A stretch of DNA of 64,000 nt, taken from positions 682,001 through 746,000 of the forward strand of contig NZ_BIXZ01000001.1 in assembly GCF_005406125.1 (NCBI RefSeq). The letters run 5' to 3'. Each line of letters starts with the position of its first letter. Position 1 is the stretch's first letter. The stretch is from Haloarcula mannanilytica. GTDB taxonomy: Archaea > Halobacteriota > Halobacteria > Halobacteriales > Haloarculaceae. The notes beneath the pieces were generated by a model that had not been told where the DNA came from, did no database searches, and saw only the letters and a program-made list of their open reading frames with translations. A program made the translations under genes and the position numbers. Shown here piece by piece: positions 14,981 to 64,000 of the stretch.

Positions 14981-15005
14981 GACCGACGAAACCGCTATGT
15001 AAACC

Positions 15006-16082
15006 GTGCCTCTCGGCTCCGACCCGCTATCCGAACTCGACATTCCCGACGGGACGACCGTCGAGGAACACGATCTGGTGACCGACGGTGATGTCATCGT
15101 CGGCGGCCAGTCCACCGTGGAGTTCGGCGTGCGCGGGCGGACGGTCATCGCCGACGAGCGGGTCCGCTTTGGCGGCCACATCGAAGCCGAAGGTGACTGT
15201 CGGCTCGACATGTGGTGTGACGTGGCGGACAACGTGCTGGTCGGCGAGGACGCCTACATCGGCGAACGGGTGCATATCGGCGGCGAACTACGGGTCGCGG
15301 GCGACCTGGACATCGGCGACGACGTGGACATCGAGAACGGGTTCGAGGCGAACGGCTGGATCGTCATCCGCAACCCGATGCCGACCATCGTCTTCCTGTT
15401 CGTTTACCTCTCACAGCTCCTCCGAATCGGCGAGGAGGACGCGGCCGAGGAAGTCATCGACGAAATGCTGAACGACGGGGACGACGAGCACGACCCAGTC
15501 CTCATTCCACGCGGTGCGAGCGTCTCGGACGACGCCTGGCGCGTCTCGACGCCGGCGACGGTCGGCGACGACTGCCGGCTCCACGGCAACATCCGCGCGA
15601 AGTCCCTCGAAGTCGGCCGTGACACGGTCGTCTTCGGGAGCCTCCGCGCGAAGGACGATATCGTGGTCGGCCGAGGCACGGAGATCAAAGGGGACGTGAC
15701 GACTCGCAGCGGCACCGTCCGCGTCGGCCCAGGCGCGAAGATCTGGGGCGACATCTCCGGGACGACCGTCGAACTCCACGAGAACGCGACGGTCGATGGG
15801 ACGATCCGCACCAGCGAGGAGATGCGGATGCACACCGAGTCGGTGCTTGACCGGCCCGACGAATCCGCGGTCGCGATGGCCGAGATGGCCGAATCTCTCG
15901 AAGGGGACACTGACACTACGGAGCCATCTACGACACAGCGCGACGACAGCGCGGACGACGCCGCTCCCGACGACGGGGATGCTGCCGGTGACGACGGTGA
16001 CGCGGACGGGACAGAGGCCGGGGAGTCCGCGGACACAGAGGCCGGGGAGTCCGCGGACACAGAGGCCGAAGCGACGGAGTAG
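15006..16082 (+). CDS. Bactofilin-like polymer-forming protein with acidic repeat tail
   Basis: A 358-residue protein built mostly of short hexad-like beta repeats (VIVGGQSTVEFGVRG, GELRVAGDLDIGDDVDIENG, GSLRAKDDIVVGRGTEIKGD), the pattern of a right-handed beta-helix seen in bactofilins and polymer-forming cytoskeletal proteins. A hydrophobic stretch MPTIVFLFVYLSQLL near residue 125 interrupts the helix and may contact membrane. The last 75 residues are disordered Asp/Glu/Ala-rich and contain an 8-residue repeat. Bactofilin homologues (halofilins) are reported to affect cell shape in Haloferax; a shape role here is inference. GTG start, leaderless. Confidence 0.8.
   Translation: MPLGSDPLSELDIPDGTTVEEHDLVTDGDVIVGGQSTVEFGVRGRTVIADERVRFGGHIEAEGDCRLDMWCDVADNVLVGEDAYIGERVHIGGELRVAGDLDIGDDVDIENGFEANGWIVIRNPMPTIVFLFVYLSQLLRIGEEDAAEEVIDEMLNDGDDEHDPVLIPRGASVSDDAWRVSTPATVGDDCRLHGNIRAKSLEVGRDTVVFGSLRAKDDIVVGRGTEIKGDVTTRSGTVRVGPGAKIWGDISGTTVELHENATVDGTIRTSEEMRMHTESVLDRPDESAVAMAEMAESLEGDTDTTEPSTTQRDDSADDAAPDDGDAAGDDGDADGTEAGESADTEAGESADTEAEATE
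16011..16068 (+). repeat. 24-base tandem repeat in the tail of the bactofilin-like gene
   Basis: Two identical 24-base units (16011-16034, 16035-16058) and a 10-base partial third unit encode the repeated acidic octapeptide TEAGESAD. In-frame units allow length change by slippage without frameshift. Confidence 0.85.
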
Positions 16083-29186: not shown

Positions 29187-29654
29187 CTACTTTTCTGCAC
29201 CCTGCCGGACCTTCACGGCCATCCCCGTCTCGAAGTCGTCCATGCCGCTGCCGGGCAGTTCCGCGCGGCCGACGGCGAGCAGAGTGCCGTCCTCGTGGAC
29301 GACGAGGGCTTCATCGCCCGGGCGGAGGGCGCTGTCGGCGGACTGCACGAACTTTGCGAAGGCGTTGCGGCCCTCGCGGATGAACGGCTCGCTCTCGTCG
29401 CCGACGACCACGCGGTGGCGCGGCGCGTCGAAGGCATCAAGAAGTCGGCTCCCGCCGGCGAGACCGAGTCGGAACCGTCCGTCATCACCGTACGTGGCGA
29501 CGCGGCCGTCCGTGGTGTGGATCTGGCGCGGGCGGCCAGAACTGGTGTGTGTTACGTCGAGGGCGTCAGCGCCGGCAAACAGCGCCGTCCCGCCACCGCC
29601 GCCGAACTGGTAGTCGGCCGCGCGCCGGAGCCCACGGAACTCGTCGTCACTCAT
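29187..29654 (-). CDS. PUA-domain RNA-binding protein
   Basis: A 155-residue protein. The last 75 residues form a PUA domain (VVVGDESEPFIREGRNAFAK, LRPGDEALVVHEDGTLLAVG), the RNA-binding module of archaeal tRNA-guanine transglycosylase and related tRNA/rRNA modification enzymes; residues 1-75 form a small TGT C2-like domain. It has no catalytic barrel, so it is a stand-alone partner or binding protein. ATG 29654 has a TATA-like GGTTTATC upstream on the minus strand. Confidence 0.88.
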   Translation of the reverse strand: MSDDEFRGLRRAADYQFGGGGGTALFAGADALDVTHTSSGRPRQIHTTDGRVATYGDDGRFRLGLAGGSRLLDAFDAPRHRVVVGDESEPFIREGRNAFAKFVQSADSALRPGDEALVVHEDGTLLAVGRAELPGSGMDDFETGMAVKVRQGAEK

Positions 29655-29674
29655 GGCCCGTGTTCGATGCCGGG

Positions 29675-29682
29675 TGATAAAC
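29675..29682 (-). promoter_or_regulatory. TATA-like box for the PUA protein gene
   Basis: GGTTTATC on the minus strand, about 20-28 bases before ATG 29654; leaderless promoter geometry. Confidence 0.45.
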
Positions 29683-29736
29683 CGCCTTTCGGTTCCGTCT
29701 CTGCCCGGCCAGTCTGAAATGAGAACCGTGCCCGAC

Positions 29737-30033
29737 CGTGGCTGCCCGAACCACGAGCGGGCAAGAGAGTCAAGTGATGTGAATGCCACTCCCCCCGTCC
29801 GATCCGAATCAACGGTTCGGCGCTGTGGAGTGACGGAGCATGAACCGGAATGCCATTGGTTCGCTCCGTCGGGTGCCCCGTCCCGAGTACGCGGGGCGTG
29901 TGCCTCTGTTTAGTTCGCGGTTAGGGACCGACCACGATGCCTGGAACTGCGGTGGGTCTCCATCTCGCGGCTGCCCTGTGACGGCCAGCCGCGAGGGTAT
30001 CCCGACACAACGGGTTTCGTCATCAAGCGACGA
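29737..30033 (+). ncRNA. Candidate structured RNA with five or more stable hairpins
   Basis: Base pairing read directly: CACTCC 29787-29792 with GGAGTG 29827-29832, enclosing CCGAA 29804-29808 / TTCGG 29816-29820; GACGGAGC 29832-29839 with GCTCCGTC 29863-29870, continued after a two-base bulge by GAACC 29842-29846 / GGTTC 29858-29862; GCCCCG 29875-29880 with CGGGGC 29892-29897; GGGACC 29924-29929 with GGTCTC 29955-29960; CTCGCGGCTG 29964-29973 with CAGCCGCGAG 29986-29995; CCCG 30001-30004 with CGGG 30011-30014. G-U pairs that extend these stems are allowed only if the plus strand is RNA. It lacks the signatures I know for SRP RNA and RNase P RNA, and no clear promoter is visible. Confidence 0.45.
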
Positions 30034-30150
30034 CACGTCATCTGTGTGACCCAACCGAACTGGGGAACTACGAGCGGATGTATATGCTGCTTCAGTTATG
30101 CAGGTGACCAGGTCAAGAACGGCCAGTGAATGGAACGATGGTCACTCTCG

Positions 30151-30168
30151 AATAAGTATATGCTTATT
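30151..30168. promoter_or_regulatory. Inverted repeat AATAAG-TATATG-CTTATT
   Basis: A perfect 6-6-6 inverted repeat about 45 bases upstream of the TATA box of the 30243 gene; candidate operator. Confidence 0.35.
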
Positions 30169-30209
30169 GGTGTCTTGTAACACACTCTCGTCGGGCGGTT
30201 TTGGGGAAA

Positions 30210-30215
30210 TTTATA
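30210..30215 (+). promoter_or_regulatory. TATA box for the small membrane protein at 30243
   Basis: TTTATA 28-33 bases before ATG 30243, the clearest TATA box in the region. Confidence 0.5.
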
Positions 30216-30242
30216 CCGGATGACTTCCAAGAGACGGGTGAT

Positions 30243-30425
30243 ATGGCTACGGACACGCGAAAAGTGATTCTGGGTGCGGTCCTGCTGGCAGTCAGTACCG
30301 TGCTTATTCTTGGCACAGGCGCAATCGACATCGGCATCCCGGCCGCCGCCGGGGCCGTGGCTGCACTGGGGATGGCCGCAGGCGCGCTCCTCGTTGGAAC
30401 GTCAGAAGACGGTCGCCCGGTCTAA
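30243..30425 (+). CDS. Small two-helix membrane protein
   Basis: A 60-residue protein with two hydrophobic helices (VILGAVLLAVSTVLILGTGA and AGAVAALGMAAGALLVGT) and polar ends. ATG 30243 follows GGGTGAT, a possible ribosome-binding site; the longer frame starting at 30201 runs through the TATA box and is rejected. No family recognised. Confidence 0.65.
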   Translation: MATDTRKVILGAVLLAVSTVLILGTGAIDIGIPAAAGAVAALGMAAGALLVGTSEDGRPV

Positions 30426-30561
30426 TCGCTACTATTGGGCTTCTGCGTTGTCGACACCAAAGCACGGCCAGACGTGAGTCCACCAACCGGAAAATCTGAG
30501 TCTGGTGAACCGGACCAAAGGGTGGGCATCAGAGCGGAGCGACCGCCTGCGCAATGGCGCG

Positions 30562-31059: not shown

Positions 31060-31517
31060 ATCAGGTGTTGGCTATCGCCCGGAATATGCTTTCGGGATAA
31101 AAAAGTGGAATATAGCCATACCTATCCCGCAATGTATCAGCTAGTGTGAATACGACAGCGCTATTCGTGGGGTGATCGGACCCGTGGCGCGATATGAGTT
31201 CTCGTATCGGGCGAAACAATGTTTCGGTGGTAGCTCCGAGATGCCGTGATAGCCCACAGCGGGAACACAAAAGCTAAGTCGATCACACGAGGTTACTCGA
31301 CCATGCGACGACGCCACCAGTCCGGAACTGCCCCGTGGCCACCCGGTGAGTGCGTCGTCCGCGCGAAACGCAAACCGACGTTTTAGTGGCTCGTGGCGGA
31401 CGTGGCGACTCCGTCTCGGGTCGGAACACCTGACAGACAGCAGCCGCCGGCATCGGCCGGCGACCCCACAGTCACGGACCGGACAACCTAACCCACAGCG
31501 ACACCACACACTCAGCA
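31060..31517. other. Gap upstream of dapA
   Basis: 458 bases. A T-rich TTTTTTATCC (minus strand, near 31095) is the probable promoter of the NYN gene. A 27-codon frame at 31303-31386 (peptide ending RAKRKPTF) has a weak AT-rich element about 30 bases upstream and lies before dapA; it could be a leader peptide but may be chance. A weak TATA-like CAACCTAAC near 31484 fits a leaderless dapA. Confidence 0.45.
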
Positions 31518-32438: not shown

Positions 32439-33184
32439 CACGGGTGGCGGTCAACGGCGTCACCGGCCAGATGGGCGGGGCCGTTATCGAGGCCGCCACC
32501 GACAGCGAGGTCGTGGTCGGCTTCGCCACCAGCGACACGGACGCGGTCGACGGCGTCCCGGTCGTCCGCCCGGAAGACGCCGCCGAGGCGCTTCGGGAGT
32601 ACGACGTGGATGTCGTGGTCGACTTCGCCGTTCCCGAGGGCGCGCTGACCGTCGCCGACGCTTGTGTCGAAGCGGGCGTCCCGATGGTCGTCGGCACCAC
32701 CGGCTTCGACGAGGACGGAATGGCTCGCCTAAAAGACGCCAGCGAGTCGATTCCGCTACTGAAGGCGACGAACTTCTCTCAGGGGATTCAGGTCCTCCAG
32801 CGACTTGTCCGGGAGGCTGTCGGGACGCTCGATGAGTACGACCTCGAACTGATGGAGACCCACCACAACCGCAAGGTGGACGCGCCGTCGGGGACCGCCA
32901 ACAGCATCCTCGACGTGATTCAGGAAGAGCGCGACGTGGAACCGGTGTACGGTCGAGAAGGGCACGCCCCACGCGAGGACGACGAAATCGGCGTGTTCGC
33001 CCGCCGGGCCGGCGACATCCGCGGCGAGCACGAGCTGGTTCTGGCCGGCAACGACGAAGTCCTCTCGCTGTCTCACCGCGCCGAGGACCGGGGCGTGTTC
33101 GCTGCGGGAGCGCTGGACGCGGCGACGTGGCTCGTCGGCCGCGACGCCGGCTGGTACGACTTCAGCGAGGTCGTGGACGCCTGA
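32435..33184 (+). CDS. dapB: 4-hydroxy-tetrahydrodipicolinate reductase
   Basis: A 249-residue two-domain reductase, second step of the diaminopimelate branch. The N-terminal dinucleotide loop GVTGQMGGAV (residues 8-17) and the signature HHNRKVDAPSGTAN with the catalytic histidine and lysine are intact. VVVDFAVPEG and MVVGTTGFDE line the active site. It overlaps dapA by four bases. The C-terminal oligomerisation helix is present, so the protein is complete. Confidence 0.96.
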   Translation: MTRVAVNGVTGQMGGAVIEAATDSEVVVGFATSDTDAVDGVPVVRPEDAAEALREYDVDVVVDFAVPEGALTVADACVEAGVPMVVGTTGFDEDGMARLKDASESIPLLKATNFSQGIQVLQRLVREAVGTLDEYDLELMETHHNRKVDAPSGTANSILDVIQEERDVEPVYGREGHAPREDDEIGVFARRAGDIRGEHELVLAGNDEVLSLSHRAEDRGVFAAGALDAATWLVGRDAGWYDFSEVVDA

Positions 33185-33254
33185 TCGGGCGGAACCGCCA
33201 GTATTAATATGAGATAATATACACACGAACACTTCTCTCAATATTACGGGTAGC

Positions 33255-33260
33255 CTTATA
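33255..33260 (+). promoter_or_regulatory. TATA-like box for the zinc micro-protein gene
   Basis: CTTATA 25-30 bases before ATG 33285 in an AT-rich gap; leaderless promoter geometry. Confidence 0.5.
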
Positions 33261-33284
33261 CGTCAGAACCGCCGACTGTCGCGT

Positions 33285-33416
33285 ATGGCTACGAACCAAC
33301 ACGTACAACTGCCAGCGACCGACTGCCCGCGATGTTCAAGTGAATTCAAAGCGACGGCCCCACGAATCAGCATGTGCCAGGAATGCGGCTACATCCCCGG
33401 CCGCGGATCAGACTAA
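33285..33416 (+). CDS. Zinc-ribbon micro-protein
   Basis: A 43-residue protein with two CPxC-type knuckles, CPRC at 14-17 and CQEC at 31-34, forming a one-zinc ribbon. It has its own TATA-like box. One-domain zinc micro-proteins of this kind are numerous in haloarchaea and some are known to affect growth and biofilm or swarming. It sits inside the lysine gene cluster between dapB and dapD but reads as a separate gene with its own promoter. Confidence 0.8.
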   Translation: MATNQHVQLPATDCPRCSSEFKATAPRISMCQECGYIPGRGSD

Positions 33417-34336: not shown

Positions 34337-34671
34337 CGATATTCTGAGCGCAGCGAAGAATCTCGATACGCGAACGGTGAGTGGAACGAGCCGTGAGTAG
34401 CGAGGCGCGCGAACACAGTGAGCGGCCCCCGGAAGTGTGAGCGGGGAACAGCGTGACCCGCGAGCAGTTACGGTGCTTTACGCCTCGTCAGACGTGCGCC
34501 AAGCCGCGTCCGAGGCGTATCTTCGGACAGGAGAAAGCAAGTGCCGCATTCCTGTCAAGAAACCCTGAAACCTGATTCTCACAGCCAACAGTCGCAAGCG
34601 AACGTGTAAGGCGACATTACCGGGTCCACACTATCGACTGTTATTTGATACCATGAACTAAACATATTCGC
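34337..34671. other. Repeat-bearing gap after dapD
   Basis: 335 bases without a gene. Positions 34341-34470 are made of GCGAAC, GTGAGCGG and GAGCG words related to those at 1-120. The right part before the membrane protein gene has a TATA-like GTTATTTG near 34638. The gap marks where the lysine gene order is interrupted. Confidence 0.55.
34401..34433. repeat. Dispersed intergenic repeat, copy 2
   Basis: Matches 76-108 (CGAGG, GCGCGAAC, AGTGAGCGGC, CGGAA) with a few substitutions. It lies at the junction where dapD is separated from lysA. Confidence 0.55.
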
Positions 34672-61500: not shown

Positions 61501-64000
61501 ATGGCACATGACACGACTGACGACGGCATGCGAGCGTCTCGGCGGACGTTTCTGAAAGCGACCGGGATGGCCACGGCAGCCGCCGCGACCGGCGCGGGTG
61601 TTGGGACCGCCGCGGCGCAAGCGGACGTGGACACACTCATCGAGGACCTCACACTGGAGCAGAAAGCGGCCCAGATGACACAGGTCGCGATCAGCTCCTT
61701 CGAGGCGGAGCCGGAGGACCCGAACGTTCCCGACAGCTTCGGGGTCGACACTGTCGGCGAGTACTTCAGCGAACTCGGCATCGGGTCGATTCTCTCCGGT
61801 GGGGCCGAACCGCCGAGCTTCGACGGTAACGAAGTGGTTCAGGGCATCAACGCCCTACAGGAGTACAACTTAGAGAACGCCGACCACGACATCCCGTTCC
61901 TCTACGGCGTCGACGCGACACACGGGAACGGGTTGCTAGAGGGCGCGACAGTGTTCCCCCAGCGGCTGAACATGGGTGCGACGCGGGACCTGAGTCTGAT
62001 TGAAGAGGCCGAACGCCACACGAGCGATTCGACGGCGTCGATGGGCGCACACTGGACGTTCGCCCCGACGACGGACCTCCAGCGGGACCCCCGCTGGGGC
62101 CGCTTCTTCGAGGGCATCAGCGAGGACCCGAAACTCGAAGGGGATGTCTCGCGGGTCCGGGCGCGGGCACTGGAGGACGACGACCGGCTGACGGCGTGTG
62201 TCAAGCACTTCGCAGCCTACTCCATCCCGAACAACGGCAACGACCGCGCGCCGGCCTCGACATCCATGCGCGACCTCCGGACGAATATCTTCCCGCCGTA
62301 CCGGGAGGCACTGGCGGCCGAGCCCGGGACAGTGATGGTCAACAGCGGCGCGATAAACGGGGTCCCGGCCCACGCCTCCCACTGGCTGTTGACGACGCTG
62401 CTCCGGGACACCTACGGCTACGAGGGGATGGTCGTCTCTGACTGGGACGACCTCAACCGGATGATCACGAACCACGACTACGCGCCGGACTTCGAGACGG
62501 CGACGGAGATGGCCATCAACGCCGGCGTCGACATGTACATGATCGGCAACGGCGGCAGCGCACCGGGACCGGTGCAGTTCATCGACACCGTGGTCGGCCT
62601 CGTCGAGGACGGCGCGATCCCCATGGAGCGCATCGACGAAGCGGTTCGACGAATTCTCGAACTGAAGGCCGACCTCGGCCTGTTCGAGCAACCGACGGTC
62701 GACGAGTCCCGCATCGGGAACGTACTCGGCGGCGCACAGGAGGCCTCCGAGACGATGGCCAAGGAGTCACTGGTCCTCCTGAAAAACGACGAGGACACGC
62801 TCCCGCTATCGGGCGACGAGAGCGTCCTGCTGACTGGCCCCGGTGTCGACGGCGACGGCAACAACACACGCGCGCTGATGCAACACGGCGGCTGGACGCT
62901 CGGCTGGCAGGGAGCCAGCGCCGGCGGCCCGTATCCCCGCCAGAATCTCCTCGAAGAAGAACTGCAATCCCGCGTCGGGGATCTCACGCACGTCCCCACG
63001 TCCTACGAGAACACGACCTGGTTCAACGGCGAGGGTGACGGTGATGACCAGCAGAGCGACGAGAACGGGAACTTCGACTTCACCGACGAGCAACAATCAC
63101 AGGTCGAGTCGGCCGCGCCCGACGCCGACGCCGTCGTCGTGGTCATCGGCGAAGGGACCCACAACGAAGGCTTTGGCGACCGGGACGAACTGGTACTTGA
63201 TGAGGCCCAGCAGGCACTGCTCGATACCGTCGTCGAGTCCACCGACGATTCGACCCCGATCATCGGCGTCATGCTTGCCGGCGCGCCGCGGGGCTCTCCG
63301 GACACCTTCAGCCAGCTCGACGCCCTCCTGTTTGCCGGCCAGCCCGGCAGCGACGGCGGGACTGCCATCGCCGAGACGCTGGTCGGCGAGTACAACCCCT
63401 CGGGCAAGCTCCCGTTCAGCTGGCCCGAGAACGTCGGCACTACGCCCGTCCAGTACAACCGGTACGACCCGACATCGACGGGTGCGACGGACAACACAGC
63501 CATCTTCGAGTACGGCCACGGGCTCTCCTACACCGACTTCGAGTACGGGACCGTCTCGGTCACACAGCCGACCGTCGGCAACCCGGCTAATCAGTCCGAA
63601 GTGACCGTCAGCGTCGAGGTGACCAACACCGGGGAGATGGCCGGCGAGCACATCGTCGAAGTGTTCAACACCCAATCCTACGGCTCGGTACTCCAGCCGA
63701 TGCGCCGACTGCTGGGCTACGAGCGCGTCTCACTGGACTCCGGCGAATCGACCACGGTCGATGTGACTGCCGACCTGACGGCGCTGGAAGTCGTGCCGGG
63801 TGACGTGCTCGGACTCGCCCCGAAGGTCGTCGAAGCCGGCGAGTACGAACTCACTGTCGGGCAGGACGGCCCGACGACGACGCTGACTGTCCAGAACACG
63901 GCGAGCATTACCGACCCGGACCCCGTTCCGGGCCTTCCGAACGGGTCGGGAGGCAATCCCGGTCGGGGTAATGGGAATGGTAACAACGGAAATAGTGGGA
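61501..64000 (+). CDS. Tat-exported GH3 beta-glucosidase, truncated by the window edge
   Basis: At least 833 residues, running off the end without a stop. A twin-arginine signal (ASRRTFLKATG, R14-R15) and an AAA-rich cleavage region mark Tat export of a folded protein. The GH3 barrel follows with nucleophile D314 (MVVSDWDD) and the ACVKHFAAYS block; the second alpha/beta domain carries TKESLVLLKN-like KESLVLLKNDEDTLPL, and a fibronectin III-like domain (SVEVTNTGEMAGEHIVEVFN) ends near residue 800. The last visible residues are a Gly/Asn linker, so another domain or anchor probably follows. Confidence 0.94.
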   Translation, partial: MAHDTTDDGMRASRRTFLKATGMATAAAATGAGVGTAAAQADVDTLIEDLTLEQKAAQMTQVAISSFEAEPEDPNVPDSFGVDTVGEYFSELGIGSILSGGAEPPSFDGNEVVQGINALQEYNLENADHDIPFLYGVDATHGNGLLEGATVFPQRLNMGATRDLSLIEEAERHTSDSTASMGAHWTFAPTTDLQRDPRWGRFFEGISEDPKLEGDVSRVRARALEDDDRLTACVKHFAAYSIPNNGNDRAPASTSMRDLRTNIFPPYREALAAEPGTVMVNSGAINGVPAHASHWLLTTLLRDTYGYEGMVVSDWDDLNRMITNHDYAPDFETATEMAINAGVDMYMIGNGGSAPGPVQFIDTVVGLVEDGAIPMERIDEAVRRILELKADLGLFEQPTVDESRIGNVLGGAQEASETMAKESLVLLKNDEDTLPLSGDESVLLTGPGVDGDGNNTRALMQHGGWTLGWQGASAGGPYPRQNLLEEELQSRVGDLTHVPTSYENTTWFNGEGDGDDQQSDENGNFDFTDEQQSQVESAAPDADAVVVVIGEGTHNEGFGDRDELVLDEAQQALLDTVVESTDDSTPIIGVMLAGAPRGSPDTFSQLDALLFAGQPGSDGGTAIAETLVGEYNPSGKLPFSWPENVGTTPVQYNRYDPTSTGATDNTAIFEYGHGLSYTDFEYGTVSVTQPTVGNPANQSEVTVSVEVTNTGEMAGEHIVEVFNTQSYGSVLQPMRRLLGYERVSLDSGESTTVDVTADLTALEVVPGDVLGLAPKVVEAGEYELTVGQDGPTTTLTVQNTASITDPDPVPGLPNGSGGNPGRGNGNGNNGNSG

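Follow-up and report, generated by a model that had tools for sequence, protein, structure and literature searches.

A lineage-restricted, conserved non-coding block (about 29700..30120) was found in the 588-bp spacer (29655-30242) that separates a divergently transcribed gene pair in a Haloarcula genome, within the 64-kb stretch of DNA analysed here (the window). The block occupies one location between these genes, is restricted to a single clade, is present in single copy within its own genome, does not encode a protein and is conserved block by block. It is recognized by its identity to relatives and by its presence in 15 of 146 genomes of the family; a core of ~370 bases (29735-30105) was used for alignments, and the whole element comes to ~370-420 bp. 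Among the explanations that we weighed, the one we prefer, tentatively, is that the block yields a candidate lineage-specific, weakly structured small non-coding RNA (sRNA). In contrast to SRP and RNase P RNA, the block does not form a compact RNA of strong structure, and at present it is a modest, unproven candidate.

Location, promoters and distribution

The gene to the left of the block (29190..29654, minus strand) encodes a 155-aa protein with TGT_C2 and PUA domains (Pfam PF14810 and PF01472), and the gene to its right (30243..30425, plus strand) encodes a putative membrane protein of 60 aa without a Pfam family. The promoter of the PUA gene (29672..29685, minus strand), with a TATA-like TTTATC near 29676, sets the left limit of the block, and the gene itself is leaderless or has a short leader. 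The right limit is set by the promoter of the small membrane protein gene, GGTTTTGGGGAAATTTATACCGG (30196..30220, plus strand), whose TTTATA is conserved in 14/14 aligned spacers. This promoter also occurs in Haloarcula genomes that have no block, a few of which show minor differences in it. Its core, TTTGGGGAAATTTATACC(G)G(A)TGA (30196-30220), hardly varies across the 27 Haloarcula spacers that were compared, block-less ones included, and such promoter conservation is unusually strong for the gene of a 60-aa protein of unknown function. On the minus strand, the only TATA element conserved in all 14 aligned spacers is that of the PUA promoter, besides a palindromic read-back at 30210. A TATA scan of the same 14 spacers detected no third conserved box on either strand, only those of the flanking genes, nor did the block show the conserved promoter (BRE/TATA) of its own that is expected of a haloarchaeal sRNA gene. 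The scan weakens the case for an independent RNA gene, although one could still be transcribed without a TATA box.

The block is present at the same locus in 15 of 32 Haloarcula genomes. A 544-bp query matched 14 of the 32 over nearly its full length; the version in H. salina (L015) is more diverged, and its alignment is uncertain outside shared motifs. H. salina was found independently by a sequence profile (E = 2.7e-6). The widest profile search covered the family level (146 genomes) and, together with a motif search, returned the same 15 carriers, with a few extra matches at chance level. Named carriers include H. salina, H. argentinensis, H. amylolytica, H. vallismortis, H. japonica and H. 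sebkhae. In a tree of two flanking protein genes the 15 carriers form one clade with 100% bootstrap, a distribution that a single gain in their ancestor or a single loss in the sister clade accounts for. Another 12 Haloarcula genomes have the same flanking genes with a spacer of just 130-204 nt. No match to the block was detected in collections of phages (50,697 records) or plasmids (72,556 records), and we found no description of the spacer in open-licence papers.

The position of the block bears directly on the strongest alternative to an sRNA, namely that it is extended cis-regulatory DNA shared by the PUA and small membrane gene promoters, with the inverted repeats serving as protein-binding sites or as a DNA-structure element. 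We consider this a serious possibility, only slightly less probable than the sRNA. The block sits exactly between two conserved divergent promoters with no third one found, its conservation falls in discrete blocks, and the arms of its hairpins decay in a strand-symmetric manner, as expected of DNA (see below). However, regulatory regions of archaeal promoters are generally shorter than 420 bp, and the stretch nearest the small membrane gene promoter (30120-30170) is poorly conserved. A spacing that shrinks from 11 to 2 nt within one hairpin, H5, of the relative L014 also suits a hairpin over a fixed-spacing protein site. Moreover, both flanking genes and their promoters exist without the block in the 12 genomes with short spacers. 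Were the block regulatory DNA, the divergent promoter region would be unusually long and constrained.

Constraint and non-coding character

Identity of the block is 77-79% to four close relatives and 68% to L014. The spacers compared with it reached 54-64% (30426-30561, where alignable) and 18-52% (34337-34655), and the block is more conserved than most nearby spacers. Across 12 species, its divergence is about 0.49 of that at third codon positions in the neighbouring genes. Variable sites are clustered, and several motifs are intact even in H. salina despite an overall identity of ~60%. The block is probably under moderate purifying selection. Rates of variable sites by codon position (0.43/0.45/0.46) lack codon periodicity, and indels break the frame. 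Since there are also no Pfam relatives (five ORFs, no match at E<=1), the block is a non-coding conserved element, and a protein gene, whether decayed or intact, was rejected. The preliminary description, which had seen no sensible protein frame here, was correct on this point.

The copy in the window genome departs from this pattern of constraint. It carries 28 private substitutions in the core (L001, 29735-30105) vs. 0-8 in the 12 closest relatives (L002-L013), and its ratio to the third-position rate is 0.88, which together indicate that this copy is evolving fast. The flanking genes of L001 group inside L002-L013, pointing either to acceleration of the block or to its replacement by a diverged allele.

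These values are also what might be expected if the block were an old insertion or expanded spacer of little function, its conservation reflecting recent ancestry and its hairpins arising by chance in GC-rich DNA. A comparison of spacers over 200 kb agrees to the extent that the block's conservation is not unique: two relatives share 0.89 identity over it, a high value that other spacer-containing stretches also reach. This placement is rough, because the list, made with a simple gene caller, still contained missed genes. The excess of hairpins likewise falls merely within the top 6% of windows. On the other side stand the 12-species divergence, which is half that of third codon positions, the motifs unchanged in H. 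salina, and the faster drift of the neighbouring 30120-30170. We regard a spacer of little function as unlikely, though less so than a new structured RNA class or a mobile element.

No Rfam 15 family matched above its gathering score, either in the whole window or at five orthologous loci, and at a relaxed local threshold the best sub-threshold match scored 16.7 bits vs. the 50 required. A tRNA scan returned no match above threshold. The single covariance-model match to SRP RNA lies elsewhere in the genome (contig C4, 205 bits), as does the single match to RNase P RNA (C1:1389478-1389927), in keeping with the earlier remark that the block bears neither signature. Archaeal SRP RNA (RF01857) is, like the block, GC-rich, of similar length and provided with hairpins, but it is 99% identical across ten species whereas the block is 86% identical. 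Archaeal RNase P RNA (RF00373) is also GC-rich and similar in length, but the block has no covariance match to it.

Hairpins, fold stability and covariation

Several paired elements can be followed through the alignments. H1 (29736..29756), CCGTGG-CTGCCCGAA-CCACG(G/A), keeps 6/6 pairs in 13 of 14 genomes, and its TGCCCGAACC is kept in H. salina too. H4 (29832..29870), seen in both the alignment and a motif scan, has an inner part, CGAACC-GGAATGCC-NNN-GGTTCG, that is the most conserved motif of the block, and an outer stem that decays in several species. This is the 13-pair bulged hairpin of the preliminary description, present in the window genome as 8 bp, an AT bulge and 5 bp. H5 (29875..29900) aligns as (T/C)GCCCCG...CGGGGCG; L014 retains the stem across the change in loop length noted above, and H. 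salina has at this position a 12-bp hairpin of different sequence. The arms of H1, inner H4 and H5 are complementary in nearly all of the 14 genomes. Towards the right end of the block, the alignment reveals a motif (A/G)CTGCTTCAG...AGG (30087..30107), in which CTGCTTCAG is invariant (15/15 genomes).

Two further helices differ more among the carriers. H8 (29964..29995) has 10 bp in the window genome; a repeat search returned its arms as 29964-29976/29983-29995 (92% complementary), and L014 has A-C mismatches here. The perfect 10-base stem described earlier (29964-29973/29986-29995) is thus present, but its length is private to the window genome, relatives having 5 or 6 continuous pairs. H7 (29955..30056) is a long-range helix that joins CGGTGGGTC (29955-29963) with GACCCAACCG (30047-30056, one bulged A). 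Among the helices, it alone shows a compensatory change: 11 relatives have A-T where the window genome and H. salina have G-C. Its pair types are A-T, G-T and G-C, and the helix is retained in H. salina.

In the window genome, the block folds better than most shuffled sequences on both strands (z = -2.54 for plus and -2.48 for minus, with 2/200 shuffles as good per strand). A recount gave z = -2.4, and when the 64 kb were tiled into 213 windows, 13 had a score as low or lower, which places the block in roughly the top 6%, after having been chosen from a 64-kb scan. The stems lie where the preliminary description placed them, but the hairpin density is only slightly unusual and not exceptional. 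By the same procedure, the SRP and RNase P RNAs of this genome have z-scores of -2.2 to -3.7. The stability seen in the window genome does not extend to most orthologues, which are no better than shuffles in seven core-clade species (plus-strand z -0.90 to +0.60); H. salina reaches -1.9 to -2.1 on the plus strand, and the L014 block folds differently.

Pairing was also tallied for seven helices, each in as many as 15 orthologues, giving 626 Watson-Crick, 13 G-T, 13 A-C and 9 other cells; the high percentage of pairing is not independent evidence, as the helices were partly chosen for looking conserved. If the RNA were on the plus strand, G-T cells should outnumber A-C cells, and if it were on the minus strand, A-C cells should outnumber G-T cells. 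The equal counts consequently favour neither strand, and the earlier impression that wobble pairs work on the plus strand only was not borne out. Nor did compensatory changes, proposed as support for the stems, exceed chance: 1 of 46 pairs changed on both sides, a figure matched by 181 of 500 shuffles, and the RNAalifold covariation terms (-0.4 and +0.31) are about 0 on both strands. Consensus folds gave z = -1.6 on the plus strand and -2.5 to -3.3 on the minus strand (column shuffles), and a coding control reached -3.15, equalling the weak minus-strand signal of the block. SRP RNA scored -4.2 by the same method, with copies so similar (99% identical) that it is an imperfect positive control. 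Conservation of paired vs. unpaired columns in single-sequence folds differed little and inconsistently.

What survives of the undescribed structured RNA proposed in the preliminary description is an element that is non-coding, unmatched, distinct and conserved; it does not appear to be highly structured or tied to the plus strand. The search of related genomes divides in the same way, with sequence conserved in 15 genomes but with almost no covariation of pairing and no conserved fold stability. It is improbable, in our estimation, that the block encodes a new Haloarcula-specific ncRNA class, perhaps on the minus strand, that is characterized by a domain closed by H7 and by the conserved CGAACC-GGAATGCC-GGTTCG hairpin. 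The original view, that this is a truly new class of conserved structured RNA, appears more doubtful still, indeed very unlikely: the fold of the window genome, the compensatory change in H7 and the minus-strand consensus score speak for it, but the orthologue folds, the lack of covariation, the equally strong coding control and the different fold in L014 speak against it. Finally, a mobile element, guide RNA or remnant would fit the hairpins and the presence or absence at one locus between clades, but we give it almost no credence, as the block is single copy, lies at the same site in all carriers, lacks terminal inverted or direct repeats and matches no phage or plasmid; nothing positive emerged for the guide RNA or non-autonomous element suggested at the outset, and by-eye inspection of the alignments showed neither a conserved RUGAUGA/CUGA pair nor an ACA-flanked hairpin (C/D and H/ACA guide features).

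The block as a candidate small RNA

We return to the preferred reading, a lineage-specific sRNA. Intergenic sRNAs are common in haloarchaea. Under this reading, the element would have been gained once, or kept solely, in the lineage of Haloarcula sensu stricto and H. salina, where it sits amid two divergent promoters. The putative RNA would combine the long-range helix H7 with a few local hairpins (H1, H4 and H5), and it may act via conserved loop or linker motifs such as GGAATGCC, probably by base-pairing. Presence at the same locus in one clade, the halved divergence, the absence of codon periodicity and the steady arms of H1, inner H4 and H5 were counted in its favour, as were the change in H5 loop length, the H7 pair types and the alternative 12-bp hairpin of H. 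salina. Counted against it were the missing third TATA box, the orthologue folds, covariation near zero, the balance of G-T and A-C cells and the consensus score of the coding control. Intergenic sRNAs such as Haloferax volcanii sRNA132 (PMC6560208) are likewise intergenic, non-coding, lineage-limited and without an Rfam family, but the block differs from them as a candidate predicted from sequence, with no transcript, 5' end, promoter or target assigned to it.

We place the sRNA ahead of regulatory DNA, and regulatory DNA ahead of a near-neutral spacer. The data do not discriminate between an sRNA and regulatory DNA, so the weights given to these three are a matter of judgement. If transcribed, the block would represent an archaeal sRNA of one lineage, clearly present or absent within a single genus and available in H. 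hispanica, a genetically tractable host. It would then provide a clean test of how new archaeal non-coding genes arise and gain constraint.

Two other features of the window were observed. Fold z-scores of -3.6 to -4.2, stronger than that of the block, were obtained for windows 33001-33297, 15001-15297, 62401-62697 and 63601-63897, most of which are probably coding. The spacer between an NYN-domain gene and a dapA-like gene (31060-31517) differs greatly in length among relatives, and in L106 these genes lie ~2 kb apart.
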